64,000 bases of DNA from Periweissella cryptocerci. Lineage in GTDB: Bacteria > Bacillota > Bacilli > Lactobacillales > Lactobacillaceae. The stretch spans positions 2,956,652-3,020,651 of the forward strand of contig NZ_CP037940.1 of assembly GCF_004358325.1 (NCBI RefSeq), written 5' to 3'. The notes under the pieces were generated by a model that ran no database searches, was not told where the DNA came from, and worked only from the letters and a program-made list of their open reading frames with translations. Position 1 is the stretch's first letter; each line of letters starts with the position of its first letter. Made by a program: the position numbers and the translations under genes. Shown here piece after piece: positions 6,802 to 50,953 of the stretch.

Positions 6802-6839
6802 TACTGTTAAAAATCTATTGAACTGTATTTTAGTAAGAT
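6802..6839 (+). promoter_or_regulatory. Conjugation-box promoter for the TOPRIM gene
   Basis: Box TACTGTTAAAAA (6802-6813), 20 bp, then TAAGAT (6834-6839) as -10. The start codon lies 58 bases after the box. One of eleven copies of this arrangement in the window. Confidence 0.65.
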
Positions 6840-6871
6840 TAATGATAATACATCTACATGGGAGCCTGCTT

Positions 6872-8218
6872 ATGAAAGACGATAAATTATCGATTGAAGT
6901 AAGTTCAATTAGAGAACTTAAAGAGCTGACAAACAGTTTTAAAATGAGAAATAAAGGTAGTCAAATTCATTATTACGATGAACATGGACTTGCGAGCAGT
7001 CAGCCAGTTGGTACTAAATTTATTTTATCCATTAATGGTGAAAAAATGAATGTACGAACGTTGACACCTAGTGATTCAACAAAATTAAACTATCAAGCAA
7101 ATGAGAGTACGAAAATAGCTAATCGAAATGCTGAATTTGAAGCTTTTTTAGATGATAAAGGCATTGAACATAGCCTTTTTTCAATTGGTCGATGGGTTTT
7201 GATTGATCAAGTTAATCATCATGGATTACGGTTTGATGAATCTGTTGGTTATTATTCTTCGATGAGTCATGATGGTGAGTTTGGAGGAGTTAAAAATTTC
7301 ATCCGAGATTACTATAAGGTTTCTGATGAAAAAGCAATTAAAGAGTATAAGGAATGGCTTTCGGATTTTAAACCAGAAAGTCAGGTTGATGTACCATTTA
7401 AAAAAAGTAATGTTTTTTCATTATCAAAACTTGATTTAGTTCTTGGCAAAAAGGATGTTATTGATACTTACTTGGTTGAAGAACGTAAGATTAGTCAAAA
7501 GTTAGTTGATGATTTATATGGTGCTAATTTAATTAGTGTTGATACAAAGAACAATATAGATTTTTTGTGGTATGACCATGATGGTAGTCAAATTGTTGGT
7601 GCTGATAAACAAGGTACTGTGAAGAATTATAAGAAGTTTCCCGAACATGGTAATTTTAAAGGAATTGCCAGTGGTTCTGCTAAAGGTTATGGATTTAAGT
7701 TTCGACATAATGGGGGCGATGAAGTTTTAGTAATAACCGAATCACCGATTGATTTAATTAGTTATTATCAAGTGAATGATGATATGTTTAACGAAAAATC
7801 TTCAGTTACAATGTTGTCTACTAGTGGTGTATTAAAACTGTTGAATCGTACTGAACGCAGTGGGAAAGTTGAATTTAACGGTGTCTTACCTACTTTTCTT
7901 CGTGATAGCGGTAAATTGCCACAAAAGATAATTATCGGTTTTGATAACGATGATGAGGGTTTAAGTGCAGTTGATTCTTTTCTACAGAATGCGGAAGTTT
8001 TGTTACAGAATACGGATGTTGAAGTTCATTTACCTATTGAAGGTAAGGATTGGAATGAAGAATTACAATCAGGTGCTAGCGGGCGTGTTGTATATACTGC
8101 TAATGGATTCGAGTTAGCACGTCGTGGCGGTGCCTATGTTCCTACGGTTGTTAGTTTTAATGATGATAAAGATATTTCAAGGAAAAACAGTAGTATTGGT
8201 CGGGGAAAAACTAGATAA
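6872..8218 (+). CDS. TOPRIM-domain protein (DUF3991-like), plasmid primase/nuclease type
   Basis: 448 residues from ATG 6872. The frame is open upstream to 6770, but that part spans the promoter box and a GGGAG ribosome binding site sits 7 bases before 6872. The C-terminal half carries the TOPRIM signature: Glu 290 in VITESPIDL and the DxD pair in GFDNDDEG (Asp 358, Asp 360), the Mg-binding residues of primases and topoisomerases. The upstream part (HSLFSIGRWVLIDQ, GGVKNFIRDYY) resembles the DUF3991 region found with TOPRIM in conjugative elements of Firmicutes. Likely role: priming or processing of transferred single-stranded DNA in the recipient. Single-gene transcription unit. Confidence 0.85.
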   Translation: MKDDKLSIEVSSIRELKELTNSFKMRNKGSQIHYYDEHGLASSQPVGTKFILSINGEKMNVRTLTPSDSTKLNYQANESTKIANRNAEFEAFLDDKGIEHSLFSIGRWVLIDQVNHHGLRFDESVGYYSSMSHDGEFGGVKNFIRDYYKVSDEKAIKEYKEWLSDFKPESQVDVPFKKSNVFSLSKLDLVLGKKDVIDTYLVEERKISQKLVDDLYGANLISVDTKNNIDFLWYDHDGSQIVGADKQGTVKNYKKFPEHGNFKGIASGSAKGYGFKFRHNGGDEVLVITESPIDLISYYQVNDDMFNEKSSVTMLSTSGVLKLLNRTERSGKVEFNGVLPTFLRDSGKLPQKIIIGFDNDDEGLSAVDSFLQNAEVLLQNTDVEVHLPIEGKDWNEELQSGASGRVVYTANGFELARRGGAYVPTVVSFNDDKDISRKNSSIGRGKTR

Positions 8219-8225
8219 ATGTTGT

Positions 8226-8262
8226 AAATATGACTTTCTGAATATGATTGTCATATTTTTTT
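8226..8262 (+). terminator. Intrinsic terminator (TATGAC family)
   Basis: Stem AAATATGAC/GTCATATTT followed by T7. It ends the TOPRIM unit and lies 9 bases before the next box. Confidence 0.85.
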
Positions 8263-8271
8263 GTGCCGAAA

Positions 8272-8309
8272 TACTGTTAAAACTGTAATAAAAAAAAGTG
8301 CTTTATTCT
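8272..8309 (+). promoter_or_regulatory. Conjugation-box promoter
   Basis: Box TACTGTTAAAAC (8272-8283), 20 bp, TATTCT (8304-8309). It drives the three-gene unit 8349-10471. Confidence 0.7.
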
Positions 8310-8348
8310 TAACTCAGGGAAAAAGGAAAGTATACGAGGATATTAGTG

Positions 8349-9062
8349 ATGGATAAATTGAACGCGTTTTTGGATAGAGCAGTTACTTTGTTTACGGCAG
8401 ATAAGGCTATTACTTGCGATTTACGGTGTTATTTGGCTGCAAGTGGTTTTAGTTTGATGGGCAGTGATCAAGTTAACAAAATTTGGCTAAAGCACTCTGT
8501 AAATGGTGTGGTAGGTACTTATGATGTTAAAAATGTTGATTTGTTAATTGCTAAATTGATTGATTATCTTCATTCTGTTAAATCATTCGGTAAAAACATT
8601 TTGTTATCAGATTTATCGTATTTTGAAATATATGAAAAATCTATTGGAGAAATTGTTGAACAGGAGACTAACGAATTTAGTGATTCATTATTTTTAAGTC
8701 CTGATGATTTACTTTATTACGATGTAAAGGCGTTTTTTTATGGAACACTTGAAAATCGTTTAGTAGATTCTGATTTTAAATCATTTGTTGTTATGCTGGC
8801 AAGCAATGGCATTAGATATGTGGTTGAGCATGGTTTAATAGACGATTTTGAAACTGAGCCTGATGTAATTGATTTTTTTGAAAGGCATTCAAAAATGATT
8901 TTGAATAAGTTCAATATTCAAAAACAAGAACTAACTGACCTAGATAAGGTGAATTTAGGGAAAGTTGCCTTTGTATCGGAATGTATACCGATTGTAGAGT
9001 CATTTATTCAGTTACTTGATTCTCGAAAAACTGATTTAGCAATTGGAAAACAATTTATTTGA
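8349..9062 (+). CDS. Hypothetical conjugation-region protein
   Basis: 237 residues from ATG 8349; GTG 8346 directly before it is an alternative. A ribosome binding site (cgagga) lies about 9 bases upstream. It is soluble, acidic and helical, with no signal peptide, membrane helix or catalytic motif noticed. First gene of an operon with two others of the conjugation region, and controlled by a conjugation-box promoter, so a transfer-related role is likely. The family is not recognised. Confidence 0.7.
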   Translation: MDKLNAFLDRAVTLFTADKAITCDLRCYLAASGFSLMGSDQVNKIWLKHSVNGVVGTYDVKNVDLLIAKLIDYLHSVKSFGKNILLSDLSYFEIYEKSIGEIVEQETNEFSDSLFLSPDDLLYYDVKAFFYGTLENRLVDSDFKSFVVMLASNGIRYVVEHGLIDDFETEPDVIDFFERHSKMILNKFNIQKQELTDLDKVNLGKVAFVSECIPIVESFIQLLDSRKTDLAIGKQFI

Positions 9063-9088
9063 TGACAGAAAGGAGTTGTTGTTAACGA

Positions 9089-9385
9089 ATGACTATTAAA
9101 GATGATTTTAAAGCCCAAGCGATGTTGATTAATGATATGTCGTGGAGTATACGCCGTAGTTACGGTAAACCTGTTGAATATAGTGAGAATACTCGCTACA
9201 ACGTAGTTAGTTTGATTGAACGTAGTGAATATCCAGAATATTTTGTGGATTATGGTGATTTAGACGCTCTGAAAAACTATCAAGACGCGCACTCTGATGA
9301 TATTGAATTTGACGCACCGTTTATTCGTGGATGGCAGTTTGATTTAGCAGCTAAATTTCAGGTTGATGGTGAAAAATTGAGTTAG
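9089..9385 (+). CDS. Small hypothetical protein
   Basis: 98 residues, soluble and acidic, aromatic-rich (YPEYFVDYGDL). An AAAGGAG ribosome binding site lies about 14 bases before the ATG, somewhat far. It lies 26 bases after the previous gene and 12 before the next, so it is the middle gene of a three-gene operon. Function unknown. Confidence 0.65.
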   Translation: MTIKDDFKAQAMLINDMSWSIRRSYGKPVEYSENTRYNVVSLIERSEYPEYFVDYGDLDALKNYQDAHSDDIEFDAPFIRGWQFDLAAKFQVDGEKLS

Positions 9386-9397
9386 AGGGGTGAACGT

Positions 9398-10471
9398 ATG
9401 GCGTATAACTCGTATCGTAAAAGGTCATTTAATGTTAGTAAGAACCAAGCTAGAGAATATGCTTCAGAGCTGGAAGAAATATCAACATATTTTAGAAATA
9501 CAACGGTTGATATTTCGTCGCATTTGGATTCTGTTTATTTTATGTTTAATCAAGAGACTGGTTTAGATCGACGTACTAAAGCAAAGAATTTTGATGGCTG
9601 GAGCGTCCGCCTATCGAATCATAGTTATGATAATCAGTATCACTCTTTGAACCGTGCTAATCATGTAATCAATATTAAGTCATCTAAGCTTGATTTCATT
9701 GAAAAATACAAAAATGTAAACAATACTTTGACAACAATTTTTGAAACATTGCAACAAAATGGAATTGATTTATGTGACGTTAATTTCATTAATTATGCTA
9801 ATAATGTTTCGGTTAAATTGTCTAATAGAAAAACGCTTAAAACACTTGTTAATTTAGAAACCATAGAAAGAGAAAAAAAGGTGGAAAAAATGGCTGAAGA
9901 AAAGGTAAATGCCCGTGATTATACTTTCGCACCAGTAAGTGCAAACACGGTTGGTGAAATGATTATTACGGATATTAAGCAGCGTCCGTCCAAGGCAAAA
10001 GGTAATCGGGAATTTCTTGCAACTCAATATACGTTCCGCAATGATATTGAACAGAAATATGCTCATGGGGCTGGTATGAATTTTTCTGACCGTACATGGG
10101 CAGCCAACGACGGTAGTTTGAAGGCGGGATATGATCACTTGAATGATATTGCCGACGCGGCTGGTTTGCTAGGCGACAAGAAAATCACTAATCTTGAAGA
10201 AGCTAAGGAAGTTCTTTTGAATCAACCGCTCAAAATTAAAGTGGCGTTACGAAAGGATTATACTGACCATGAAAATATAGAACATTTTTCAAATGCGGTA
10301 TGGGCAAAAAATGTTTCACCAACTGATAAACCGGTTGTCGAACATGATTTTGAGCAACGCGCTAAGGTTCGTGCTGAAAAAAAAGCTCAAGCTTCTCAAG
10401 TAGAGACAGAAACTAAATCGAAAGAACAAGTTGTTGAAGTTCATAAAAACAAGGGCGGTATTTCTCGTTAA
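9398..10471 (+). CDS. Two-part protein with a C-terminal ssDNA-binding-like (DUF669-like) domain
   Basis: 357 residues. Residues 1-160 form a Tyr/Asn-rich basic region of unknown fold. Residues 165-325 (ANTVGEMIITDIKQRPSKAKG... NREFLATQYTF...) look like the phage DUF669-type single-stranded DNA-binding fold; the remainder is a charged low-complexity tail. An internal ribosome binding site (aaaggtgg) sits 5 bases before an in-frame ATG at 9890 (MAEEKVNARDY), so a 193-residue C-terminal protein may be made separately. The fold assignment is by eye and tentative. Transfer operons often carry an SSB-like protein to coat incoming DNA. Confidence 0.72.
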   Translation: MAYNSYRKRSFNVSKNQAREYASELEEISTYFRNTTVDISSHLDSVYFMFNQETGLDRRTKAKNFDGWSVRLSNHSYDNQYHSLNRANHVINIKSSKLDFIEKYKNVNNTLTTIFETLQQNGIDLCDVNFINYANNVSVKLSNRKTLKTLVNLETIEREKKVEKMAEEKVNARDYTFAPVSANTVGEMIITDIKQRPSKAKGNREFLATQYTFRNDIEQKYAHGAGMNFSDRTWAANDGSLKAGYDHLNDIADAAGLLGDKKITNLEEAKEVLLNQPLKIKVALRKDYTDHENIEHFSNAVWAKNVSPTDKPVVEHDFEQRAKVRAEKKAQASQVETETKSKEQVVEVHKNKGGISR

Positions 10472-10523
10472 AGATTTATGTACTTTCGAACTGTATGAAA
10501 AAGAGAATACGAAAAAACGCAAA

Positions 10524-10561
10524 AAATATGACAATTGTATTCAATTTGTCATATTTTTTTT
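10524..10561 (+). terminator. Intrinsic terminator (TATGACAA family)
   Basis: Stem AAATATGACAA/TTGTCATATTT with T8. It ends the 8349-10471 operon. Confidence 0.88.
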
Positions 10562-10569: not shown

Positions 10570-10607
10570 TACTGTTAAAACCGGTTTCTTCAAGTTTCGT
10601 CGATACT
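10570..10607 (+). promoter_or_regulatory. Conjugation-box promoter
   Basis: Box TACTGTTAAAAC (10570-10581), 20 bp, GATACT (10602-10607). It lies inside the apparent upstream extension of the giant reading frame, which argues that this extension is not translated. Confidence 0.7.
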
Positions 10608-10637
10608 TTATATATAAATAGATTACGAGGTGTAGAC

Positions 10638-13600
10638 ATGGAAAAAACGGTTGATAACACTACGGATACAGGATTTATTGCTAGTGACGATTATTATTCT
10701 ATTTTTAAAAAGAATTTGGGATTTGGTACAAAGAATGAACCAAGTAACTTCACGGTGAACGAAAATAATCCATATCCAAATCAGCTTGAAAAAGCGGTGC
10801 TATGGATGACAAAGAATCAAGAGTATACCACACAAGAATTAAGTGAGGCTGTGAATGAATTAGTTGTGAATGCTTCTATTGAGCAGAAACTTGTTAAATT
10901 AGATGTTGGTGTTGTTGACGTTGTACGTACTTTGTCTAGTGGACGAACTGTTAATAATAAAATGCTAACCATTAATGGTGTTGAGACAAATACTTCGGTT
11001 AAAGATATTTTGGGTGATATTGATGGTTTTGATATATCTGATTTTGCGTTTTATTGTGAATCTGATGAAGCAAAGCCTAAGAAATTTGTAAGGCGTGATG
11101 GTTCTGAACGTGTTGATAATGTATTTGGAAGTGTTCAAATTGTTTCTTTAAAAAATGATATTAAAGATAATGATTCTGGGGAGTACATGTTACGCCAGTT
11201 TTTTCCAACTATAGAGTCTGGTGACAAACCTTGGATAAGCTCTTGGAACGTTCACAACGCAAATCGTTTAGTTGCTATTAATAATCTGTATAAAGTTACT
11301 AAGAAAAGGTTTGAGGAAAAGGGCGGTGCTATTGATGTTGCTGGACTAGAACGTAATTTGGCTTCACCGTTTGATACTGAAATTCATAAAATTGAAGTTG
11401 CTAGAAATGAATTGGCTGACGGAACTCGTCCTTTGAGTGATTATTTTGTATTGCAGCAAGGTTCTTTTGTTAATAACCGTCTTTCTCTTGATGATTTTTA
11501 TGAAAATGGTGGCTTTTCATCTGATACATCAATTGTTTCGGCTGCTTTAGCATGTTCCAAGTTATATGTTAGTGGTGGAAAAGGTAAACCAATTTTAATT
11601 GATGAAGATGTTATTCAAAAAATAAAAAAAGTCCGAGATGAAAGTATTAATGGTTTGGACGAAATTAGTGAAATGACTCCTGAAAAAGAACAAGGTAGTA
11701 TTGCTTTTTTGTTTAAGGATAGGCTAAAACGGCATTCTTATGGGAAGTCCACGAAATTTGACACATTATATTATAACGCCAAGGGCTGGCGTGCTGGTGT
11801 GAGTGTTCCTCGCTATGGCGTTGTATATGCTCTTGACTCTTTTAAAGCACAGTATGATGAGTTTTTAAATTACAAGTTAATGAATGATTATGAAAAAGAG
11901 CTGGATTCTGATTATGCTAAGCCGTTTATGACTAAGAAAAACATCAATAAGTCAACTCAAGCAGCGATGGAAAATTCATCATTTTATCAAAATGGGTTTA
12001 AATATGTCGAGTTTGATAATGATGTTGATTTAGGTAGTATAGGTACCATTGAAGCGGAATGGGCTAATTATTTTTATAGTTTTCCTGAAGTACCGTTTGA
12101 GCAACCAGATATTAGATTCCGAAAGCTAGGTAATTATCGGTCAGCAGGTATTTTCTTTCCCGGTGCTAATTCAATTGCTATTGATGGTAATAGTATTTAT
12201 TCACTTACGCATGAATATGCTCACTATTTGGACTATCATTTCAAGCCAGGTAAAAATTTGTCTATGGACGATGATTTTATGAAAATTGTTGATACGTATA
12301 GAAATAGGATTGATGAGCTTGATCATGATAGTTATGTGTATAAACATAAAGGGTATTTCTCAACGCCTACTGAAGTTTTTGCTAGAGCTTTTGAGCTATA
12401 TAAGAAAAGCCAAGAAAACGATGATAAAAATATGTTTTTGGCTCCTCAAAAAACTTATGACAATGAAACTGATTATCAATTGTTGAACAATGGGTTGAAA
12501 GAACTTGCCTTTGCGTACTTTGATAAAGTTGGTTTGAATATCGGTAAGGAATCTATTGAAAAAGAAATGGCGAATAATGGTGTTGAGCAGTTAGAGGCAA
12601 GCAAGATTACTCAGACAAACGAGGGCACAAAAAAAGTCCAACAACCTACGTTGCCAGACTCTTCTTTACAGCTTTTTAGTTTAACGTGGATAACTTCGCC
12701 CCTTAAAACCTCCACACAGAATGATGAGTTTTTGTTTAGTGAGAGCTACTCAAATCATACAAATCAAACTCTCCCTTTAACTAAAAGTATAGCAGATTTT
12801 GACAAACCTAACAATAAGCTCCAATTGAAACTGGGATTGAAATTAGCGAGTTATAAGTTACCAAAAGAATATTTAGATGAGCGCGAACAAGAAAATACAG
12901 AACTAGAAAATAATAAGAATAACAAACGTCCATACTTAACGAATTTATTGTTTCAAAACAGTGAAGTGACAATGTTCATTCCAGGCTCTACCAAAAGAGA
13001 TTTTTATGCAAAAAAAGATGGTCGTGATGTTTTCCAATTTGCAGCTCCTCAAAACAACGCTCCTGACTCTTATTTTGATTTTTCAAAAGCTTTGGTTGTT
13101 CCCAATGATGTTGATTTTGAACTGACTAACGGAAATGTATTACCGATAGAACAATTTAAATATTTACAGGATAATAGAAGTCGTTTTGTATTACAGTTTA
13201 TGAATTCCATGAACGATATTCATCAAGCGTATATTCATCATGAAGATGAAAATGTACAGAATCATAGCAAATATCAGCGTGTTTCACTTTTCCAACAAGC
13301 TAACTTATTGGGGTGGGACGTTGAGAGACGCAAAATAGATGAAGGACTGGATTTAAGTGAATCATTAAGTGCAGTTAATCAAGTTTTAAGTCCAGATACT
13401 AATTTGGTTTGGCAATTGGGAGGTGAAAAACCAATGAATGTGGCACCTGATAATGATTTAGATAATTCTGGTATAGAAGAAACTGAGCATGAAGTTAGCG
13501 AAGGTCTTTATAGTGCGTTACGCAACATTGGTACTGAGCAAGTTTTAAATGTTGCCGGAGTAGGTTCCGTAAAATATTTAGCCGTTTTTGGTCATGATGA

Positions 13601-16974: not shown

Positions 16975-17012
16975 TACTCTTATATCCGTTAATAATATGT
17001 TGATGTCATACT
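16975..17012 (+). promoter_or_regulatory. Conjugation-box promoter (divergent copy)
   Basis: Box TACTCTTATATC (16975-16986), 20 bp, CATACT (17007-17012). It keeps TACTCTTA but not the AAAAC end. The start codon is 57 bases downstream, the same geometry as the other copies. Confidence 0.55.
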
Positions 17013-17043
17013 TTAATTTATAAATTTAGATTGGAGAATAAGT

Positions 17044-21692: not shown

Positions 21693-21730
21693 AAAGTATG
21701 ACAAAAGGAATACTCTTGTCATACTTTTTT
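21693..21730 (+). terminator. Intrinsic terminator (TATGACAA family)
   Basis: Stem AAAGTATGACAA/TTGTCATACTTT with T6, nine bases before the next box. Confidence 0.88.
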
Positions 21731-21738: not shown

Positions 21739-21776
21739 TACTGTTGAAACAGCTACAACTCTATAGATGAGATTAT
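21739..21776 (+). promoter_or_regulatory. Conjugation-box promoter
   Basis: Box TACTGTTGAAAC (21739-21750), 20 bp, GATTAT (21771-21776). The start codon is 66 bases after the box. Confidence 0.65.
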
Positions 21777-21816
21777 TGTTTTATGTTAAAAATTGATTCG
21801 ATATGGAGACTAATAT

Positions 21817-26421: not shown

Positions 26422-26484
26422 TCAGCCTAAAATAGGTTTATTATCAGCATTTGAGCTGACGGTAATAAGAATTGAATATGGAAA

Positions 26485-26521
26485 AAATATGACAACTGGC
26501 TGACGGCTGTCATATTTTTTT
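26485..26521 (+). terminator. Intrinsic terminator (TATGACA family)
   Basis: Stem AAATATGACA/TGTCATATTT with a T7 tract. It ends the 1534-residue gene. Confidence 0.87.
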
Positions 26522-26531: not shown

Positions 26532-26569
26532 TACTGTTAAAACTGCTCTGCTCTAATTACGGTCATCAT
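26532..26569 (+). promoter_or_regulatory. Conjugation-box promoter
   Basis: Box TACTGTTAAAAC (26532-26543), 20 bp, CATCAT (26564-26569). A TATAAA at 26572-26577 is an alternative -10. Confidence 0.62.
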
Positions 26570-26600
26570 TGTATAAAAGAAATACAAGGAGGACGAGATT

Positions 26601-29138: not shown

Positions 29139-29176
29139 TACTCTTAAAACTAGCCTCCTAATAAATCTCTTAAAGT
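29139..29176 (+). promoter_or_regulatory. Conjugation-box promoter
   Basis: Box TACTCTTAAAAC (29139-29150), 20 bp, TAAAGT (29171-29176). The distance to the start codon (84 bases) is longer than in most copies. Confidence 0.65.
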
Positions 29177-29234
29177 TAATTTAACGGTTACTCAACCAAC
29201 CGAATAAAATTTTCAAGAATTGGAGGAAAAGGGC

Positions 29235-33049: not shown

Positions 33050-33087
33050 AAAAGTATGCTAATTGTATTTTGATTAGCATACTTTTT
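33050..33087 (+). terminator. Intrinsic terminator (related hairpin family)
   Basis: Stem AAAAGTATGCTAAT/ATTAGCATACTTTT, T5. A compensated variant of the TATGACAA hairpins: both arms changed together. Confidence 0.88.
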
Positions 33088-33096: not shown

Positions 33097-33134
33097 TACT
33101 GTTAAAACAGGTGCACTTCGTAATATGAGAATAT
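33097..33134 (+). promoter_or_regulatory. Conjugation-box promoter
   Basis: Box TACTGTTAAAAC (33097-33108), 20 bp, GAATAT (33129-33134). It drives the multi-HTH regulator and perhaps the Fic module behind it. Confidence 0.68.
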
Positions 33135-33174
33135 TTGATATTTGAAACAATAAAATTAATTAAGTGGTGGAAAC

Positions 33175-33822
33175 ATGTCAAATTCTCATATTACAAAAGA
33201 ACTGCTTGAATATTTGAATGAGCAGGATTTTACGTATCAACAAATAGCCGATTTTTTAAATACTGAACGATCAAAAATTGGTGCACTAATGGTGACGTAT
33301 GAAGTACATGGTGCGGATACTCTTTTTTCAAAGGTGGAATTGGAAAAATTTCATCGTATGGTTTTCTTGAATAGTTCAAGTCAAGCGATTGCTAAGGAGT
33401 TTGGACTTTCAACTTTTGTCATACGTCAACGTATTAAATCGTTAAAGTTGCGATCGAATGCTAAGCTTGATTCAGTAGTTTTCTCTAATCAGATTATGAA
33501 ACGTATCACGGAGGGCGCTGGTATCAATAAAATAGCACTTGAATTAAACGTTTCAAATATGCGCGTGTTTAGATTTTTGATTAAGGAAAAGGTTATTCGT
33601 GACCACCCTTTAGTGATTACAGATGAGGATGCAGATTTTGAGTTACTACAAGAGGCAGTTGTACTTGAGCTAACTCGTAATAATTATTCATTCGTTGTCA
33701 TTAGTGTTGATAAATTACGTGAGATGTTACGTGCCGATAGTAATGTAGGTGAGATGGCTGCCTATTTTAATACTAGTCAAGCACGTATTCGGGCAGTTAT
33801 TCGAGCATATAAGTTGGGTTAG
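33175..33822 (+). CDS. Multi-helix-turn-helix DNA-binding protein
   Basis: 215 residues containing four helix-turn-helix-like units: QQIADFLNTERSKIGALM (about 22-40), QAIAKEFGLSTFVIRQRI (about 73-90), NKIALELNVSNMRVFRFL (about 120-137) and GEMAAYFNTSQARIRAVI (about 194-211). There is no catalytic or sensor domain. Such an array suggests binding to an extended DNA site. Because the gene lies behind a copy of the conjugation box, it is a candidate regulator of the eleven-box regulon with autocontrol. That link is inference; it could also serve replication or oriT binding. Confidence 0.75.
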   Translation: MSNSHITKELLEYLNEQDFTYQQIADFLNTERSKIGALMVTYEVHGADTLFSKVELEKFHRMVFLNSSSQAIAKEFGLSTFVIRQRIKSLKLRSNAKLDSVVFSNQIMKRITEGAGINKIALELNVSNMRVFRFLIKEKVIRDHPLVITDEDADFELLQEAVVLELTRNNYSFVVISVDKLREMLRADSNVGEMAAYFNTSQARIRAVIRAYKLG

Positions 33823-36013: not shown

Positions 36014-36202
36014 TTTGTTTACTTATAATAATGTTGAAGCATCGCTTATACAACATGAGTATTTTTGGAATTCAAAAGTGGTGCATTCTGAACTATCAAA
36101 AATGGGCTACTGTTAGTTTAACAGTGACACAAACTAACAAGGGATTTGATTTAGATTAATATTCTAAAGTTGCTCGTTAAAACTATTTGTTATAGTATTT
36201 TG

Positions 36203-36244: not shown

Positions 36245-36640
36245 ATGAACAAAAATTTAGATTTAGGAAAAAATATTAAGTACCTTCGTGAAAAGAGAGA
36301 ATTAACACAAGAACAACTAGGAGACGAACTTGGTTATTCTGGTCAAACAATTTCCAATTGGGAAAACGTTGTTAAGGTTCCAAGAAGGAAAACACTAAAA
36401 AAATTAGCGCAATTCTTTCAAATTGAAGTTATTCAATTAACATCTAAGCAAATGTTTGAATCAGAACTACTCATGCCTTTAACAGAATCTCAGTTAGAAA
36501 TTGCCAGAATGATTATTCCAAACAATACTCAAACTGAAATGCGATTAGACATTGCCAGAATGATTGATCCAAACGCTAGTCCTGAAGAATTAGAGCGTCT
36601 CAAGGCTGCGATTGTAACATTTCATGCTAAATATGGATGA
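36245..36640 (+). CDS. XRE (Cro/CI) family transcriptional regulator
   Basis: 131 residues. The N-terminal HTH_3 domain is clear: LGKNIKYLREKRELTQEQLGDELGYSGQTISNWEN (about 7-40). The C-terminal part contains two similar short units (LEIARMIIPNNT and LDIARMIDPNAS), perhaps a dimerisation element. It has its own promoter region with a dyad operator and no conjugation box. It might repress the conjugation promoters or the neighbouring secreted-protein genes. The last codons lie in a segment that recurs at two other places (36629, 38068, 39498). Confidence 0.9.
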   Translation: MNKNLDLGKNIKYLREKRELTQEQLGDELGYSGQTISNWENVVKVPRRKTLKKLAQFFQIEVIQLTSKQMFESELLMPLTESQLEIARMIIPNNTQTEMRLDIARMIDPNASPEELERLKAAIVTFHAKYG

Positions 36641-37936: not shown

Positions 37937-38067
37937 GATTTTTCTCCTTTACTGTATTAATTTAGATAGCTCGATTTTATGAGATTATGTGCACTCTTAT
38001 CTCCATCTACATTTTACTTCTAATCCATTGGTATTACTGGATTAAGAGCTTACAGCTCAACGAGTAA

Positions 38068-38245
38068 TATGGATAAATTCAGAGAAAAATATTACTATTT
38101 GCTGCAAATAATATGACAAAAATAAGTTTTATTTGAATTTTTCAGTCTACTTCTTGATTGTTGTTCTTCATCTAAAAATAAGAAAAAAGTATGACAACTG
38201 TATTTTCTGAATAATACAATTGTCATACTTTCTTATTTATTCCTA
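38068..38245. repeat. Repeated segment, copy 2 of 3
   Basis: Begins AATATGGATAAATTCAGAG and is nearly identical to copy 1 through the AAATATTACTATTTGCTGC stretch. It ends in the TATGACAA-type hairpin at 38185-38240. It separates the two paralogues. Confidence 0.75.
38185..38240. terminator. TATGACAA-family terminator
   Basis: AAAAAAGTATGACAA...TTGTCATACTTTCTT with an inner GTATT/AATAC stem. It ends paralogue B on the minus strand. Confidence 0.82.
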
Positions 38246-38251
38246 AAGTCA

Positions 38252-39497: not shown

Positions 39498-39690
39498 GAA
39501 ATATGGATAAATACAGCAGGAAATATTACTTTTTGCTGAATAGAATCTGGTAAATGTGAGCCGTTTAGGGGTAGATTTGCTGTTTTTTTAATTTGTTTTT
39601 TGGTCGTTGATATATTGTTTTATTCATCTGAAAATCAGTAAAAAGTATGACAATAGTATTCAGTAAAGAATATTATTGTCATACTTTTTT
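39498..39690. repeat. Repeated segment, copy 3 of 3 (diverged)
   Basis: Begins AATATGGATAAATACAGCAG and keeps AATATTACTTTTTGCTGAA and the TATGACAA hairpin, but the middle differs from copies 1 and 2. It marks the right border of the duplicated block. Confidence 0.6.
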
Positions 39691-39699: not shown

Positions 39700-39737
39700 T
39701 ACTGTTAAACCTTTCGAATTTTCGCCTATGCGAATAT
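39700..39737 (+). promoter_or_regulatory. Conjugation-box promoter of the adhesin
   Basis: Box TACTGTTAAACC (39700-39711), 20 bp, GAATAT (39732-39737). The leader is longer than usual (113 bases from box to start), so an extra element or second promoter may lie in 39740-39820. Confidence 0.62.
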
Positions 39738-39824
39738 ATATATATACTCTGTTTTTTAGTTGTAAATCAGTTGTTGACGTTTGATATAAATAGTGTTTAG
39801 ACACTAGAAAGAGAGATAGATGAT

Positions 39825-42800: not shown

Positions 42801-45800
42801 GTTCCAAATAAAACTGATAAGACGACATCATTTAAAACTAATGAAGAAGGGTATTTCTATACGACTGAACCTTTGGATTATGGTGTCGATCGTTATCAAT
42901 TGATTGAAGTTCATACCCCTTATGGTTATAACTTAGCTTCTGAACCAATGACAGTTTCAGTTGATAAGATTGATTACTCTGATGGTAAAGATTATATGGA
43001 ATTTAACTTTGCCGATGACCCGCAACCTGGTCAACTTGATATTACTAAGGTGGTTAGGACAGCTACAGGAATTGGTGAACAAAAGAGTGATTTAGGTACG
43101 TTCATGGGTCTTGATTATTCAGAAGTTCCAGGAGTTGGCTATGACTTCATGTTACAAGCTCGTGACGATGTGATTACTCCTGATGGTACAACTCGTGTTA
43201 AAAAGGGACAGTATGTTTCTGTTGATGGTACTGGTGTAGATGATAAGTCTGATGGACTTGTTTTAACCTCTGGTGAAGATGGAAAAGTAAGTACTGGTAC
43301 TATTCTATATATTGGTGATTACACATTAATCGAAACTAAAGCACCTTTAGGAGTTACAATTGCAGATCCTTGGGACTTCTCAGTCACTTATGGTGGTGAG
43401 ACAGTTAAGGCAACCTACTATGAAACGACTGTTCATGACGATGTACAATTATTGAATATTGTAGGTCATAAAGCAGAACAAGTAATTAACGGTTACGATA
43501 AGGACGGTAAACCTGAAATTGCGGTGCAAGACGCTACAGACGGTCAGATTTTCGCCGTTCGTAATGCTGACGACTTCAGTTTGATGGGTGCTACTGTTAA
43601 AGCTGATACCACATTGGCTTTAGCTCAAGTAAATGGTGGTAAGTTTGAATTTGATACATTTTTACCTGCTGGAAAGTACTATGTTCAAGAAGTTGATTCT
43701 GGTTCAAAGCATGTATTGAATCCAAATAAGTACTTCTTTACTTACACACCTAAAAATAATGATAATACTCAAAGCTTCCAAATTTATGCAAATGGATTTA
43801 AGCAAGACAAGGGTTCTGAAACAGATGATGACGCAGCACCCGAAGCTGAAACGCCAACTGACGGTGAAGTAACTGCAAATGAAGTTGTTACGGATAATGA
43901 TGACGCGGTTATTAAGCAAGATGAAATTACTGATGATTCTGTTTCAGATACTGATATTCTTAATAACTTGTTCTTAACTGATGTTCCATTCAACAAGTTA
44001 AATCAAGTTATTAATGATGATTTGTATACTGGTAGTGATAACTATATTGCTGGTGCTGGTGCGGTATTTGAACTTCGTGATTCAGCTTCTGGTAAAGTTA
44101 TTCAAACGGTAACAACAGATAAAAATGGTAATGCTACGTGGAAGCAATTAGGTGTCGGTGAATACCTGATGAATGAAACAAAATCAAGTGATGTAACTCA
44201 TGCAATTAATACAGATGTATATGCTATCAACGTTCAAAAGGGGGCTACTACAATTTCGGTAAACAGTAAGCAAGTAGGCTCGATTGACAATACTAATTTG
44301 TATAACGCTTATGTTACTGAACAACTACCGCCTGTTGAAGATACTGATACGACAGTTGACGATGAAGCAACTGATGATAATACGGCGGTTGATACAACTT
44401 CTACTTCAGCTGATACTGAAGATAGTTCAAAAGAAGTAGCAACTGTTAAAACTGTTGCTGAAGCTCAACCAACCGGTAGTGCATTCACAGTAAGTGATCC
44501 AATTACCGATTTACCTAAACCTGGAGTTGACAAGTATATCGACACTGTTGGTGAACATGTTAAGACCACGCAAGACGATGTTGATCAAAATGTAAACTTT
44601 GTGATTTCTGGTCAATTACCTTTACTTGATAATGCTAAGAATTTAACTGATGTGCATTTGAAAGACAACCTTGAAGAAGCTTACACTTTCGTTAAAGTTG
44701 ATAAGGTTGTTGACGTTACTGATAACAATAAAGATGTAATAAGTCTTGGTAAAATCACTGCTCCAAAGGGCAAATTTGGCGGTACTGTTGATTGGGCTGC
44801 TAATGACTCAAGTCAATTTAATGGTCATATTTTGGCAATGCACTTAACTGTTACAGTTAATAGTCATGTATTCCAACATAAATATTTGGATAGTAAAACT
44901 GGTGATTATGTTGTACCAAATGTGGGTATTTTACACTTTAATGGTGGTGATTTAGATTCTAATGCTAATACAACTGCTAACGCACATGACCTTGTTACAC
45001 CACCTGTTGATGTTCATGTTCGTATGCCTGGCATTGATAAGAGTATTGTTTCTGAAAATAACAAGTTAGTTAAGGATAAGGCAGTTCAACACACTGATGT
45101 AATTCAGTACATGGTTGACGCTTACTATCCGTTTGCTCATAACGGACTTTTCAATAATGTCACTATTTATGACAATGTAGTTGACGCTTTGATTCCGCAA
45201 GAGATTACTAAGGTTACATTGGTTGATGATAAAAACAATGAAACTGACGTAACCAAGCAATGGACACAAAGCATTGAAAAGAAAGTTGCCGGAACTGTTA
45301 AAGTAACTGCTAAGAAACCGACTGATTGGGCTGGTAAACATGTGCGCATGTACTTTACAGCCACACTTTCGGCTCATGCGACGGATTCTAAGTACTGGAA
45401 TAAGAAAAAGAATGAGTACGTAATTCCTAATGTGGGTCATATGACTTACAACAATAAGGACGCTGATTCTAATGCAAACGCGACTACTAAGACACCTGGT
45501 ACTGATTTGACTAGTGCAAAGGTAAATGTTCATTTGAAACAACCAAAAGCGTCAGTAGCTAAGTTCTGGGTTGACGCTCATGGACGTAAGAAAAAGAGTC
45601 TAAATGTTCGCTTGGGAGATAAATTGACTGCTTTGATTATTGGTCATGTTCCTAGTGTTAATGATTTGAAGAATGTTGAAATTAACGATCAATTTGAAGA
45701 AGCATTTACTCCAACGGGTGAAGTTAAAGTAGAAGTTGATGGTAAGAACGTTACCAAAGAATTTACCGCTAAAATTGAGAAGAAAGCTGGTGGCTTTGCT

Positions 45801-46148
45801 TCAGTGAAAGCCAAAGATTCTCAGAAGTGGGCTGGTAAGTCTATAGATGTATACTTCAATGTAACTTTGAATAAGAATTACATGCAGAAAAAGTATCGTG
45901 ATAAGGATAAAAATGGTTACACGATTCCGAATGTAGGTCATTTATTATTCAACTCACAATCTTTAGATTCTAATGCAAAAGCTGACCATAATTTGACCTC
46001 AAATAAAATTGTTGTTCACGTTGATGGTGAACGGCTTGCTAACACTGGTTTCATTGCTTCAGGACGTTGGTTGTTTGTTCTTATGGCAATTGTGTTTACC
46101 GGTTTAGCAGCTTTAGCTGGCTACAAGGCATACAAGATTAAAAGATAG
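39825..46148 (+). CDS. Giant sortase-anchored adhesin with CnaB/SpaA-like repeats
   Basis: 2107 residues. Long signal peptide (basic KEKWIKRLKRIALG, hydrophobic core, cleavage near FAG-N about 44). The N-terminal ligand-binding-like region (about 45-580) is followed by several CnaB/SpaA-type domains (about 590-1370; typical starts VNKTG, FQKTDRD, VNKVDSQTGK). Three related C-terminal isopeptide-type domains (about 1560-2060) share VPNVGH/L...DSNA motifs. The wall signal LANTG lies at about 2071-2075, followed by a hydrophobic helix and KIKR tail. It would be anchored by the sortase at 32191. Likely role: cell-cell contact in mating, comparable to aggregation substances of other Gram-positive plasmids. 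Confidence 0.93.
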   Translation: MSKLNRKEKWIKRLKRIALGVGLIGTIGLAGLSPGISPDNVFAGNIDSDQYMPTGTTDYGGVSLVPNGGTIEVPLNIHKLIKISNSHLTGLSVSSSGSIATQYNLKQMVNGDDADGYGFYFSKSDEQNNPSLSATQLPTMIYSTDQIDLDGKQIDVVISITSATFDSQSNFVDGGIISFRKNLLGVNQSGFSSVSFSYSMVTHGTNNAPNLDSTSATYLELTDIDSSQAVNFGAGTSDNVVMITKDPRTSMDYYGRQIDGVSIGKDTSGRYWFVAGNNMDLDTRPVDSVFAMFKPGNFAFSGTWYKHYDTIELTTGANSGNTYPYTNSVVAAGQQDTITNAVSQGYSGREYLGFGSVANYDLVVGNPVPAPTKTVTDSDETAVQTNSLPTIRAAQTYDVSVSIPDDVWDLDNFILRDTIDPMWNVTGARVVASHAGNPDETGSDLFDVTDSSGTAGNRLFNNATITKNSNGSTSVSASINSSVTNGSMGSGLISFQNRAYHLLIDVTPNPDYALAHMGDNGWIYPHSSNDTVSTTGGNYTSGNNLQIFDQGSIYINYSGAAESGEDSDDNSGNLRTRYTATTRTRIPLINVTVNKTGTVFGNAMPSSFYSVLDAVFQLYRSNSSTTVGNTFATDVGGHATSQRVPMDAYDVKEISTAHGFILNSGWVGKISLTTSSDSNNNISIDMKNDEQFGSFSFQKTDRDKNAVSSAGAGSLDGATYTLRRLYDGKTWTLTTHDGGKFSSSDLGLYDATHFEIADYSLTETKASKGYLVDSTPVNFSVTYAGMNASVAVNATARDSELIIRNDITIHKNADGSTTVVDGQQPIPGYDDDEYNDSIQQRLQGIEFKATLTDGTGYNKTTGTVTSKAGDGNVWYSSLSDVNGNAVFKDLPFGHYTISEEATKQDGSKNIPDGFMAMKPFTVYVSEDKKNGTTDSDGASTRANGYSFDVDDDRLKWPIKVNKVDSQTGKVIPFANTEFNILDLKSGKLLEMNVPNKTDKTTSFKTNEEGYFYTTEPLDYGVDRYQLIEVHTPYGYNLASEPMTVSVDKIDYSDGKDYMEFNFADDPQPGQLDITKVVRTATGIGEQKSDLGTFMGLDYSEVPGVGYDFMLQARDDVITPDGTTRVKKGQYVSVDGTGVDDKSDGLVLTSGEDGKVSTGTILYIGDYTLIETKAPLGVTIADPWDFSVTYGGETVKATYYETTVHDDVQLLNIVGHKAEQVINGYDKDGKPEIAVQDATDGQIFAVRNADDFSLMGATVKADTTLALAQVNGGKFEFDTFLPAGKYYVQEVDSGSKHVLNPNKYFFTYTPKNNDNTQSFQIYANGFKQDKGSETDDDAAPEAETPTDGEVTANEVVTDNDDAVIKQDEITDDSVSDTDILNNLFLTDVPFNKLNQVINDDLYTGSDNYIAGAGAVFELRDSASGKVIQTVTTDKNGNATWKQLGVGEYLMNETKSSDVTHAINTDVYAINVQKGATTISVNSKQVGSIDNTNLYNAYVTEQLPPVEDTDTTVDDEATDDNTAVDTTSTSADTEDSSKEVATVKTVAEAQPTGSAFTVSDPITDLPKPGVDKYIDTVGEHVKTTQDDVDQNVNFVISGQLPLLDNAKNLTDVHLKDNLEEAYTFVKVDKVVDVTDNNKDVISLGKITAPKGKFGGTVDWAANDSSQFNGHILAMHLTVTVNSHVFQHKYLDSKTGDYVVPNVGILHFNGGDLDSNANTTANAHDLVTPPVDVHVRMPGIDKSIVSENNKLVKDKAVQHTDVIQYMVDAYYPFAHNGLFNNVTIYDNVVDALIPQEITKVTLVDDKNNETDVTKQWTQSIEKKVAGTVKVTAKKPTDWAGKHVRMYFTATLSAHATDSKYWNKKKNEYVIPNVGHMTYNNKDADSNANATTKTPGTDLTSAKVNVHLKQPKASVAKFWVDAHGRKKKSLNVRLGDKLTALIIGHVPSVNDLKNVEINDQFEEAFTPTGEVKVEVDGKNVTKEFTAKIEKKAGGFASVKAKDSQKWAGKSIDVYFNVTLNKNYMQKKYRDKDKNGYTIPNVGHLLFNSQSLDSNAKADHNLTSNKIVVHVDGERLANTGFIASGRWLFVLMAIVFTGLAALAGYKAYKIKR

Positions 46149-47520: not shown

Positions 47521-47570
47521 AAAAAATATGATAAAAGTATTCGTAACGGAATATTTTTATCATATTTTTT
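47521..47570 (+). terminator. Intrinsic terminator (TATGA family)
   Basis: AAAAAATATGATAAAA/TTTTATCATATTTTTT, with inner GTATTC/GGAATAT pairing. A compensated variant of the TATGACAA family. Confidence 0.87.
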
Positions 47571-47579: not shown

Positions 47580-47617
47580 TACTCTTAAACCCGCGATATG
47601 AAAGGTCATAGTACGCT
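47580..47617 (+). promoter_or_regulatory. Conjugation-box promoter of the coupling-protein gene
   Basis: Box TACTCTTAAACC (47580-47591), 20 bp, TACGCT (47612-47617). The start codon lies 68 bases after the box. Confidence 0.66.
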
Positions 47618-47659
47618 TAATGTTATTAAAAATATTAAACATGAAAGTGGGTGAGAAAG

Positions 47660-50644
47660 ATGAACGGGTTGAGAGACGAACTTACTGAAAGACCTTCCAA
47701 AGTACCTGATTTTATAAAAATGAATAATCCAAAAGTGAGAATTAGTCTGTATATTGTCATGGCAGTGTTTTCTTTACTGTTTTCACTTTACTTGGTAACT
47801 GTCATAGTTCAATTAAGTCATTTGAATATTTTTAATTGGTTTATTCCAAAAAATGTATCGGGAGCTTTAAATTCAAGTACTAATTTTTCATTTAGTCACG
47901 TGTTCTCGTTGTTTGGTTTTGTGAATTTTAGTTTACTTGTTTCAAAACACGTAATAATTGTGGTGATGTTAGCTTTATTAATTGAGAGTGCAGCACTTGT
48001 TTTTACTCGAAAAACATTTACTGCAACCGGTGATATGAATTATAACGAGTATGGTAATTCAAGAACGGCAACTCCTGAAGAAGTAAAAGAACAATATGTA
48101 GAAATTGATGATATGGCTAGTTCGCTAAAATATCGTCCTGATGACACTTTTGCTGGTTATGGTGGTGTCCCTGTCATGCACGAGTTAGTGCATAATCGGT
48201 TGGGTGAGAAACTTGCTAAGTCAATGGGAGTAACTGATGATTTTAAAGGATTTGTTTTCCAAAATACTTTGAATTCTTCAAAGATTTTTAAATCAAAATC
48301 CCCTGCGCCAGGGAAATATTTTATTGATCAAGATACGGTTAATACAATTGTTATTGGTATTACACGGTCGGGTAAAGGTGAAATGTTTGTAAACATTCTT
48401 GTCGATATACTCTCAAGGGCGCAGAAACAAGCTTCTATCGTCGTTACTGACCCCAAGGGTGAATTATACCGAATGTCATATAAAACGCTTAGAATGCGCA
48501 ATTACAACGTTCAGGTGTTGAATTTGCTTAATATGCCGTTTTCAATGTCTTACAATCCATTACAAGTGGCTATTGATTATGCCAGAAAAGGATACGTTGA
48601 TGAAACTCAAGAAGCGGTTAATGCCGTAGCGACTTCAATCTATGAGAAACCTGGGGCTAGCAAAAGTGGAAATGACGCCTTTTGGATTAATTCCTCAAAG
48701 AATTTGTTAAGTGCTTTGATTTTGGCACTGATTGATATTGCTAGAAGAAAAGAAAAGGACTTAGGCTCATTCCCCGAAAAAAAGGATTTAGACGATTGCT
48801 GGAAGGATGTAACGCTATACAATGCATATAAAATGTTGACTGTTTTAGGTGAAGAAAAAGATACCCCTGAAGGAGCTGACGAAAGTAAGTCAAAGTTATC
48901 AATTTATTTTGAGAAGTTTCAAAAACTGCCAAAAGATGATTTTAGGTCTATGGCATATGATAATTTCCAACAATCGAACTTCGCCGGTGATGAAACGGCT
49001 GGTTCAATTTATTCTAGTGCATTGGAAGGCTTGCGTTTATTTTCTCAGACCGGTATTGCTCGATTGACTAGTAAGAATTCGATTGATTTTAAGGATTTGG
49101 GTTTTCCAAGACGTTTTTCAATTCATTTTCCTACCTCCAAAGATGGTATCTCTGTAAAAAATAAAAGCTGTGATGTTACTTTTTTCGATGATGAAGGTAA
49201 TGAGGTTTCAAGTGGAAAACGGCTTGTTGACCAAGCAGGTTGGCTAACTTATGAAATTAAAGAGTTTTTACCAGACAATTTTACGGTTACAGTTATTTTT
49301 AAAAATCGTGTATCTACTGACTTAGTTTATAAATTTGAAGGGTCAAAAATTTATGAGATGGCGGGTTTCAGGAAAGCAAAATTAGATGAATTTTCAGATA
49401 TTCCTGTGCTTGATTTTGTTGATTTAAATTTATCTAATCAATTGGATATGCCAATGGATAAACATCCTGACAGTTATGAAATAAGATATTCTGATAAACC
49501 AACAGCGTTGTTTTTGGTTATGCCTCCACAGAAAGCGGATTACAACATTCTTGGATCGTTCATTGTTGATCAGGCATTTAACCAGAACTATGAATTAGCA
49601 TTAAACTCGGGCGGTAAATTGCATAATAGAATTCATTTTATTCTTGATGAATTTGGTAATTTACCACCGATAAATGCGATGGCAACAAAGGTATCAATTG
49701 GTTTAGGTCAAGGTATTCTGTTTAATATTATTATTCAGAATATGGAACAGTTGGAAACGGTCTACTCTAAAGAGAACAGTCAAACAATTATGTCAAATGC
49801 TGCTAATTTGTTTTATATTTTGACGCAATCGACTGCGACGGCTGAAATGATGGTGAAGTTAGCTGGTAAGCGGACTGTTACTGTCAAAAATAGAAGTGCA
49901 ACGGCTGGACAATTACAGACGGTAAATGTTAGTGAAAGTCGAATTGGTCAAGATGTAATTGATGTTAATCAGTTTATGAATTTCAAAGTAGGTGAGATGT
50001 TTGTAAGTCGTTCTACGCACCGTCAAACGTTAAAACATAAAAATGTCCGTGCATACCCAATATATGACAAGGGAGAATATTCAATGCCGTCTCGTTGGAT
50101 GTTTTTAAATGATTTTTTTGATGAAAATACCAGGGTGGCTGATATTCCGGTTGAATCATTGCACCGGGATTTAAATTTATGGGGTGTAACTGAAGATTTT
50201 GGTGCGCAATATGCAAAGCTGAATTTTGAGGTTGCAACTTCGACTACACTTGAACAACACGCTGGGAACCATACTAGAAGTAGTTCAGTTAATATTCCAA
50301 TTTTGGGGAATAATGAGGCTGTCTCTAATCTCTTATCCGTTGAAGATGTACAACATACTAAATCGGATGAATTGTTGATAGATTTGAGTAAAATAAACGA
50401 TTCCAGTTATCAAGCTCAAGTTAAACAATCAGTTTTAATGGTATTCCCTGAAGAAACTACGGGATTGATTTCAGATAAACCAATGATTGATACAAATGGA
50501 AATATATCTCCGTATTGGAGCAATTTTTTGTCAAAAATAAAAACTGAATCGCTAATGAAACACAATTTTAAAAGTGATGTTTTATACGGAAAATTTGTTG
50601 AGCAGCTAAAACAAAGGAAAATTTATCCAAAACAAGTTGAATAA
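47660..50644 (+). CDS. virD4: VirD4/TraG-type coupling ATPase
   Basis: 994 residues from ATG 47660 (GTG 47651 in frame). Two N-terminal membrane helices (about 25-48 and 90-113), Walker A GITRSGKG at 233-240, TDPKGELYRM after it, and Walker B-like LDEFGNLPPI at about 663. It is much longer than typical VirD4 (550-650), owing to an insertion of a beta-rich domain (about 490-590, between the NTPase motifs) and a C-terminal extension (about 790-994). It recruits the relaxosome to the channel. Monocistronic, with its own box promoter and terminator. Confidence 0.93.
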   Translation: MNGLRDELTERPSKVPDFIKMNNPKVRISLYIVMAVFSLLFSLYLVTVIVQLSHLNIFNWFIPKNVSGALNSSTNFSFSHVFSLFGFVNFSLLVSKHVIIVVMLALLIESAALVFTRKTFTATGDMNYNEYGNSRTATPEEVKEQYVEIDDMASSLKYRPDDTFAGYGGVPVMHELVHNRLGEKLAKSMGVTDDFKGFVFQNTLNSSKIFKSKSPAPGKYFIDQDTVNTIVIGITRSGKGEMFVNILVDILSRAQKQASIVVTDPKGELYRMSYKTLRMRNYNVQVLNLLNMPFSMSYNPLQVAIDYARKGYVDETQEAVNAVATSIYEKPGASKSGNDAFWINSSKNLLSALILALIDIARRKEKDLGSFPEKKDLDDCWKDVTLYNAYKMLTVLGEEKDTPEGADESKSKLSIYFEKFQKLPKDDFRSMAYDNFQQSNFAGDETAGSIYSSALEGLRLFSQTGIARLTSKNSIDFKDLGFPRRFSIHFPTSKDGISVKNKSCDVTFFDDEGNEVSSGKRLVDQAGWLTYEIKEFLPDNFTVTVIFKNRVSTDLVYKFEGSKIYEMAGFRKAKLDEFSDIPVLDFVDLNLSNQLDMPMDKHPDSYEIRYSDKPTALFLVMPPQKADYNILGSFIVDQAFNQNYELALNSGGKLHNRIHFILDEFGNLPPINAMATKVSIGLGQGILFNIIIQNMEQLETVYSKENSQTIMSNAANLFYILTQSTATAEMMVKLAGKRTVTVKNRSATAGQLQTVNVSESRIGQDVIDVNQFMNFKVGEMFVSRSTHRQTLKHKNVRAYPIYDKGEYSMPSRWMFLNDFFDENTRVADIPVESLHRDLNLWGVTEDFGAQYAKLNFEVATSTTLEQHAGNHTRSSSVNIPILGNNEAVSNLLSVEDVQHTKSDELLIDLSKINDSSYQAQVKQSVLMVFPEETTGLISDKPMIDTNGNISPYWSNFLSKIKTESLMKHNFKSDVLYGKFVEQLKQRKIYPKQVE

Positions 50645-50771
50645 TTATATATCAGATTTTTTTCTAGGAAATATCGTACTGATAATTATGATTGGTGCGG
50701 TGCTTAGAACACGTAAAAGGAAATTAGGAACTATTAGTGACTGACCAGTTACTGCCTGGTAATGATAATAG

Positions 50772-50813
50772 AAAAGGAGCTTGCCGATGTTTCCATCGGT
50801 AAAGCTCCTTTTT
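50772..50813 (+). terminator. Intrinsic terminator
   Basis: AAAAGGAGCTT-GCCGATG/CATCGG-AAGCTCCTTTTT, a long G/C-containing stem with one bulge and a T5 tract. Confidence 0.88.
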
Positions 50814-50915
50814 GTGTTCAATTTATAATTCAGATTTAGCAGAATGGATTTGTTATGTTTAATTGTTCTTATATTCAAAGTTTCTGCAATAATTCTTCAC
50901 GTATTTTGAGGTTAG

Positions 50916-50953
50916 TACTCTTAAAACTTGATATGCATAATTCTTGATAAGGT
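50916..50953 (+). promoter_or_regulatory. Conjugation-box promoter of the VirB3-VirB4 operon
   Basis: Box TACTCTTAAAAC (50916-50927), 20 bp, TAAGGT (50948-50953). The start codon is 67 bases after the box. It drives eight genes, the longest unit in the window. Confidence 0.68.

Follow-up and report, generated by a model that had tools for sequence, protein, structure and literature searches.

The conjugative element in the window (the whole stretch of DNA analysed here, i.e., the last 64 kb of a genome of 3,020,651 bases contained in one contig and placed by its relatives in the Lactobacillaceae) carries eleven sites at which a box is followed at a fixed distance by a hexamer resembling a -10 element, and these sites are very probably the promoters of one element-wide transfer regulon. 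Our best explanation of the findings, which we regard as probable, is that the host sigma-A RNA polymerase would use a weak and sometimes extended -10 (nAnnnTT) at these sites, that an HTH activator encoded by the element would occupy the box (about -44 to -33) and touch the DNA again around a TTT at about -56 to -54 (numbering with +1 set 12 bp after the hexamer start), and that the bound activator would supply the recruitment otherwise given by a -35. Hairpins would insulate the units, sister elements follow the same geometry with other boxes, and the likeliest binder of the box would be the HTH protein encoded directly ahead of the MobL relaxase.

The Element and Its Transfer Machinery

The sequence-only reading had spoken of a plasmid-wide regulon; the element-wide part of this claim stands and the plasmid does not, since the 3.02-Mb genome is one contig and the element is embedded in it, flanked on either side by a copy of a recombinase-gene repeat (window positions -8684 to about -7826, and 58806 to about 59718). 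The duplicated part of the recombinase gene together with short repeats is perhaps the footprint of an integration. A pLS20-type conjugation module is present, with CD1115 VirD4, a p028 membrane protein, a DUF5592-like protein, VirB4 and the MobL relaxase, in which VirB4 and the DUF5592-like protein were identified by comparison with relatives. Other genes of the element encode a T4SS-pilin-like protein, a sortase, a SpaA adhesin, a topoisomerase and a DarA_C/LPD1 protein. The relaxase gene begins left of the window:

1..702, + strand: 3' end of the MobL relaxase gene

The closest VirB4 is 39% identical among 397 family genomes and about 37% identical among plasmids. Searches with VirD4 and the four-HTH protein in genome contigs and with VirB4 in viral contigs returned no close relatives of the element, and the pattern of terminator plus box had no match in viral contigs. 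Two further features of the window are a tandem pair of closely similar secreted-protein genes on the - strand (36815-39370; repeat families D1, 88%, and D2, 77%) and a TPP riboswitch ahead of thi genes (63531-63633, - strand).

Eleven Boxes and the Genes They Head

All eleven boxes and hexamers lie where the sequence-only reading had put them and all on one strand. The candidate promoters are as follows:

6802..6840, + strand: box promoter 1, TACTGTTAAAAA, N20, TAAGAT; ahead of a DUF3991/Toprim gene, ATG at 6872
8272..8310, + strand: box promoter 2, TACTGTTAAAAC, N20, TATTCT; ahead of genes 8349-10471, the last being DUF669
10570..10608, + strand: box promoter 3, TACTGTTAAAAC, N20, GATACT; ahead of gene 10638-16889 with LPD1 and DarA_C domains
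16975..17013, + strand: box promoter 4 (the weakest), TACTCTTATATC, N20, CATACT; ahead of DNA topoisomerase 17044-18816
21739..21777, + strand: box promoter 5, TACTGTTGAAAC, N20, GATTAT; ahead of the gene of a 1534-aa protein, 21817-26421
26532..26570, + strand: box promoter 6, TACTGTTAAAAC, N20, CATCAT; ahead of a pLS20_p028-family membrane protein, 26601-29045
29139..29177, + strand: box promoter 7, TACTCTTAAAAC, N20, TAAAGT; ahead of a T4SS-pilin-like gene 29220-29537, then 29753-32173 and sortase 32191-33009
33097..33135, + strand: box promoter 8, TACTGTTAAAAC, N20, GAATAT; ahead of the four-HTH protein 33175-33822
39700..39738, + strand: box promoter 9, TACTGTTAAACC, N20, GAATAT; ahead of a SpaA-domain adhesin, 39825-46148
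47580..47618, + strand: box promoter 10, TACTCTTAAACC, N20, TACGCT; ahead of the CD1115-family VirD4 coupling protein 47651-50644
50916..50954, + strand: box promoter 11, TACTCTTAAAAC, N20, TAAGGT; ahead of a DUF5592-like gene 50928-51296 and VirB4 51964-53940

The proposed consensus TACT[GC]TTAAAAC is followed strictly by six of the eleven boxes, with one departure in those at 6802, 21739, 39700 and 47580 and two in that at 16975. The spacing is as regular as had been claimed: the hexamer nAnnnT stands 20 bp past the box in 11/11 cases, against 0-4/11 at twelve adjoining offsets, and the start codon follows the end of the box after 56-68 nt in nine cases and after 84 and 113 nt in two. That every unit is of the conjugation type was claimed too broadly, since the boxes do head transfer units, but the one at 33097 stands ahead of a protein with about four HTH motifs, which is no classical transfer gene. 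Between the pilin-like gene and the gene at 29753 lies a tRNA-like sequence (29606-29707, + strand) with paired acceptor, D and T arms, whose anticodon arm is replaced by a long hairpin; it scores 45 bits with the Rfam tRNA model (fold z -2.95) and is not called by ARAGORN.

That the sites are an artefact of chance or of AT-richness is a reading to which we give practically no weight. The sequence is AT-rich, and the box at 16975 is no better than the best background site in the leave-one-out test; however, the pattern that takes in all eleven sites occurs 11 times on the + strand and 0 times on the - strand of the 64-kb window versus a mean of 0.13 and a maximum of 2 in 60 first-order Markov sequences searched on both strands, and with up to one mismatch there are no such sites elsewhere in 3 Mb. 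In the whole genome the 39-bp model with 0-1 mismatch finds nine places, all inside the element and all on the + strand. At two mismatches it finds 28 further places, two of which are box sites; these two-mismatch matches are background, the reversed control giving 48 at 0-2 mismatches. Leave-one-out scores with a position weight matrix (PWM) are 20.0-27.4 for ten of the boxes, and the box at 16975 is the weakest member because its 14.4 lies barely above the best non-site under the full matrix (14.3). Only this box is doubtful, and for the set as a whole the counts speak against chance. Across the 397 family genomes, the box pattern elsewhere never exceeds six per strand, the top other genomes over both strands being G010 (6/6), G045 (6/5) and G070 (6/4). 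The absence of further copies of the window box from its genome makes a host regulator less likely.

Architecture of the Proposed Promoters

There is good support for the suggestion that the box stands where a -35 would be expected, since matches to TTGACA at 16-18 bp from the hexamer number 0-2/6 in all eleven promoters and at most 1/6 in ten of them, compared with a random mean of 2.6 and a random frequency of 12% for one match or fewer. With the -10 kept, the -35 absent and a box at a fixed distance, the sequence has the pattern of activator-dependent sigma-A promoters. The hexamer 20 bp downstream of the box reads as a weak -10; it is directly followed by T (+38) in 10/11 boxes and preceded by TGn at the place of an extended -10 in 5/11 (P 0.001; 0-2 at the other 18 offsets examined). 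A free search of 100 bp gave sigma-A look-alikes with a score of 8.9 for box genes and 8.3 for non-box genes (P 0.047), so that those of the box genes are no poorer and the difference even goes the wrong way; several of the look-alikes of box genes sit in hairpins.

Conservation around the boxes extends over about 60 bp (among the box-region repeat pairs listed, the longest has 85 nt) and includes a TTT upstream, in which columns -12 and -11 relative to the box are T in 11/11 and column -10 in 10/11. In the four boxes without a hairpin the TTT is present at -12 to -10 in 4/4, whereas only 0.07% of random foursomes of window positions share any trinucleotide at any of 58 offsets. Box and TTT would occupy neighbouring turns of the helix, an arrangement that would fit an HTH protein touching the DNA at several points.

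We think it likely that the box is an activator site rather than a repressor site. As the operator of a repressor, it would keep the promoters closed in donors and allow a short burst of activity once the element has entered a new cell, in the manner of p576, for which the accessible part of the source describes one repressor on several establishment promoters (PMC8708921). We consider this improbable, since a strong promoter is needed for repression and these have no -35 at the right spacing, and since the units are mating-channel and adhesin genes and not establishment genes alone.

A hairpin with a shared stem ends 10-14 nt ahead of 7/11 boxes:

10521..10559, + strand: shared-stem hairpin, example, AAAAAATATGACA..TGTCATATTTTTT, before the box at 10570
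8226-8258, 21693-21727, 26482-26520, 33050-33086, 39640-39689 and 47521-47570, + strand: other shared-stem hairpins before boxes

The hairpins are probably terminators that insulate each unit. The eleven candidate promoters and the seven inter-unit hairpins speak against one large operon. In all there are ten hairpins between genes (8226-47570) with the common stem AAAAAGTATGACA/TGTCATACTTTTT, and it is odd that one terminator-like sequence is reused across one element.

Sister Elements and a Second Element in the Same Genome

When related loci were scanned with a PWM of the window box, no set of sites emerged; the relatives use other boxes. In sister elements from three other genera the pattern TGGCGAAAG[A/T]T, 20-21 bp, nAnnnT stands ahead of many of the same genes. 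This shared layout strengthens the case for an element-wide regulon. Exact TGGCGAAAG[AT]T occurs at 15 sites in five sisters (G022, G141, G288, G214, G313), and 14/15 have nAnnnT at 20 or 21 bp, a count that omits one minus-strand match of G313 in a coding region. When one mismatch is tolerated and all matches enter the count, the spacing is present in 47/67 matches in seven box-and-HTH sequences versus 4/22 in nine other conjugative elements; five of those seven sequences were picked because the box had already been seen there. With like sites collapsed, the same seven sequences (the five sisters, pMP118 and LROSRS0_p1) give 34/50.

Over the 397 genomes the TGGCGAAAG pattern has 0-6 matches each, and bare counts fail to single out the carriers: G141 (5), G022 (5+1), G288 (2+3) and G164 (4+1) are high, and G384 (2+4), G194 (2+3), G231 (0+4) and G386 (1+3, near-identical repeats) are equally high. 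Among the matches listed, the five of G141 fall inside 25 kb of the element contig, which again makes a host regulator less likely, and the matches in G384, G194 and G231 are dispersed.

A second element lies in the window's own genome at about 22-88 kb on the other strand (G000:C1, L033-L036), with a VirB4 that is 28% identical. Its box TTGTCCCAAAATTTTTCA occurs four times, exactly, and is followed after 28 bp by TAnnnT in 4/4 (TACACT, TATTCT, TATCTT, TATCTT); no further copy with up to one mismatch is found in the whole genome. Two of these boxes precede genes that by eye encode an adhesin and a pilin-like protein; the other two precede a DUF5592-like gene and a small gene that neighbours a DUF3991-type gene. 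A copy of the 4592 gene of the window, 87% identical, is also present in the second element.

Early counts of 8- and 12-mers had hinted at other boxes and were hard to read, the top 12-mer of the window reaching 12 versus 9-11 in shuffles. An unbiased search for a box plus spacing in 14 elements, with 12 simple pair-block shuffles each, rose above the shuffles for the window, G141, G288, G214, G313, L053 and G373 and not for the second element (whose 18-mer was found otherwise), G022, L051, L052, G105, G139 and G268. On inspection, the candidate sites of L053 looked like ribosome sites or coding sequence, and a candidate box of L052 failed too on follow-up. In G373 (L108-L109), G.TACTTTT, about 21 bp and TAnnnT before several genes are suggestive only of a possible further box. 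The same search showed [GCT]TAACCTCG, 15 bp, nAnnnT in 5/5 upstream regions of G313 (L040-L041). In the non-coding sequence of G214 (L043-L045) that entered the counts, the words GGGGTGAT and TATTCCCC occur about 20 times each and are perhaps a CRISPR array.

Candidate Regulators

The proteins that come into question as readers of the window's box are:

about -2061..-1372 (left of the window), + strand: 229-aa counterpart of the pre-relaxase HTH protein, two tandem HTHs by eye; ahead of MobL
33175..33822, + strand: four-HTH protein, 215 aa, about four HTH motifs by eye; under the box at 33097
36245..36640, + strand: XRE regulator; its upstream region has a half box GTTAAAAC (36176-36183), exactly 20 bp and TATACT, and a dyad (36109-36125)

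BLAST among the sister elements, inspected by eye, pointed to no HTH gene that they share in the vicinity of the transfer machinery. The relaxase operon has a recurring order, i.e., two small genes, an HTH protein and then MobL; the two small genes look ribbon-helix-helix-like by eye in the window element, and Pfam finds nothing in the one that was scanned. Homologs of the pre-relaxase HTH protein of G141 are present in 6/6 box-bearing genomes (G141, G164, G214, G313, G022, G288) and in 0/11 other carriers, the sample being 17 of 36 VirB4-positive genomes. The Fisher P of 8e-5 for this co-occurrence overstates the case because the box genomes form one VirB4 clade (five of the six being on the tree), so that it amounts to roughly one event. 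L051, whose VirB4 is 47-53% identical to that clade, lacks an HTH gene ahead of mobL, as judged by eye, and also lacks a box with the spacing; L052 and L053 have a gene at the HTH position, and no box was found in them.

A prediction set beforehand, that plasmids with the HTH protein carry the box, held on pMP118 of L. salivarius, where 9/11 matches have the spacing; in its 49-kb stretch the figure is 7/9, compared with a mean of 0.2 and a maximum of 1 in 40 shuffles. On the Furfurilactobacillus plasmid LROSRS0_p1 the spacing is present in 7/11. The two plasmids are only partly independent, since some sites of pMP118 are near copies of those of G022, and LROSRS0_p1 repeats those of G141. One box of pMP118 precedes the aux-HTH-mobL operon, as in G022, and the regulator may therefore activate its own operon.

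Among nine relatives of the pre-relaxase protein, 17 columns are invariant, and S104, T105, R107, H108 and K114 of these lie in or adjoin the recognition helix. A profile of five members (A1) matched sigma region 4 (2h27) at E 0.008, and that of nine (A3) at E 0.41; because the larger profile lost this match and Pfam offers an Xre-like HTH for the family too, we do not class the protein among the sigma factors. The predicted fold has a pLDDT of 62, with the HTH near 80, and Foldseek gave no match with E <= 0.001 in the PDB.

For the window element the corresponding protein is the one of 229 aa. Pfam finds no HTH in it, nor in the proteins of L052 and L053. The A2 profile (the 229-aa protein plus two plasmid relatives) matches the sister profile A1 with a probability of 83% and E 1e-5, most clearly N-terminally; A1 against the 229-aa protein alone is weak (probability 11%). 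The likely recognition helices of the 229-aa protein are unlike those of the sister proteins, just as its box is unlike theirs. No good box was seen at the relaxase operon of the window element itself. At the pre-relaxase place of the second element there is a 99-aa HTH-like gene. That the pre-relaxase HTH protein binds the box, and hence that the 229-aa protein would read the box of the window element, is in our view a good possibility that falls somewhat short of probable.

The main rival, which we hold to be rather unlikely, is the four-HTH protein, which would read the box and, being box-controlled itself, form an autocatalytic switch. It has its own box at 33097, about four HTH motifs can be made out in it by eye, and it gives weak HTH, sigma-r4 and tandem-HTH Cbp1 matches; a long asymmetric site is what a tandem array would be suited to read, and both the protein and the box set are unmatched elsewhere, a word-based search of 5.8 billion proteins giving no other match of the protein at E 0.001. 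However, BLAST (E 0.01) finds no relative in 13 other element stretches, though several share the geometry, and the predicted fold is unreadable (pLDDT 43). Kinship with Cbp1 was rejected as unspecific, that model also matching 8/14 control genomes. The four-HTH protein may be a second-tier regulator.

The XRE protein would control the boxes by binding TACTGTTA as a half site. Upstream of its gene the inverted repeat that had been noted at 36108 is indeed there, the dyad ACTGTTA-GTT-TAACAGT (36109-36125) being a perfect 7-bp inverted repeat that no result links to the boxes, and the half box is followed after 20 bp by TATACT. Yet 4/11 boxes read TACTCTTA, which breaks the half site, the boxes are no dyads, and the half box was spotted after the fact; a role of the XRE protein is thus very improbable.

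Relation to Known Systems and Implications

In layout the sites are like the MotA promoters of phage T4, the middle promoters in which the MotA box replaces the -35 and the -10 is kept; there the box lies near -30, and AsiA is needed. The plasmid pLS20 of Bacillus subtilis, which presumably shares MobL and CD1115 kinship with the window element, is alike in its p028-type machinery and in two small auxiliary genes ahead of the relaxase, as far as the accessible parts of the sources describe it. In the pLS20 family, EGeRS1 is a conserved structured region of 400-750 bp per operon, which the window boxes with about 60 bp do not match, and EGeRS2 is a strong sigma-A promoter with a ribbon-helix-helix repressor; the window boxes have no -35 at the right spacing. 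BisDC of ICEclc we take to be unrelated to the regulator candidates described here.

According to the accessible part of one source, pLS20 has conserved sequences before several operons, but these repeated sequences belong to establishment genes, and the genes for the first three transfer steps lie in one large operon (PMC8708921). The relaxase gene of pLS20 is described, again in part of a source, as translationally coupled to Aux2 (PMC5675868), which would leave no HTH gene between the two. ICEclc of Pseudomonas runs a transfer regulon with many promoters and a common motif under BisDC (PMC9286271, in its accessible part), so that the kind of system is already known. It is like the window element in its dispersed promoters, shared motif and joint switch-on by an element-encoded activator with a feedback loop, and unlike it in being Gram-negative and, in the portion seen of that source, in having no co-diverging private boxes described (PMC9286271). 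The accessible part of a review of Gram-positive conjugation describes no such regulon (PMC6540685), and a literature search with most subscription journals outside its reach found none of this type in lactobacilli or pLS20 relatives.

If the proposed regulon is real, one short scan would find the transfer regulon of a conjugative element together with a candidate master switch, and it would explain how scattered transfer units fire jointly with host genes untouched and how two elements share a cell without triggering each other. A wider and more tentative idea, whose chances we judge to be modest, is that in Lactobacillaceae conjugative elements a fast-diverging HTH family of the relaxosome operon, possibly sigma-region-4-like, replaces -35 recognition, and that box and recognition helix change together as a private code without cross-activation between co-resident elements. 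The large family of lactic acid bacteria plasmids would allow a direct test of such co-evolution. In G022 and G214 the box also stands ahead of an excisionase-like gene (by eye) adjoining the integrase, where it would couple excision to transfer.
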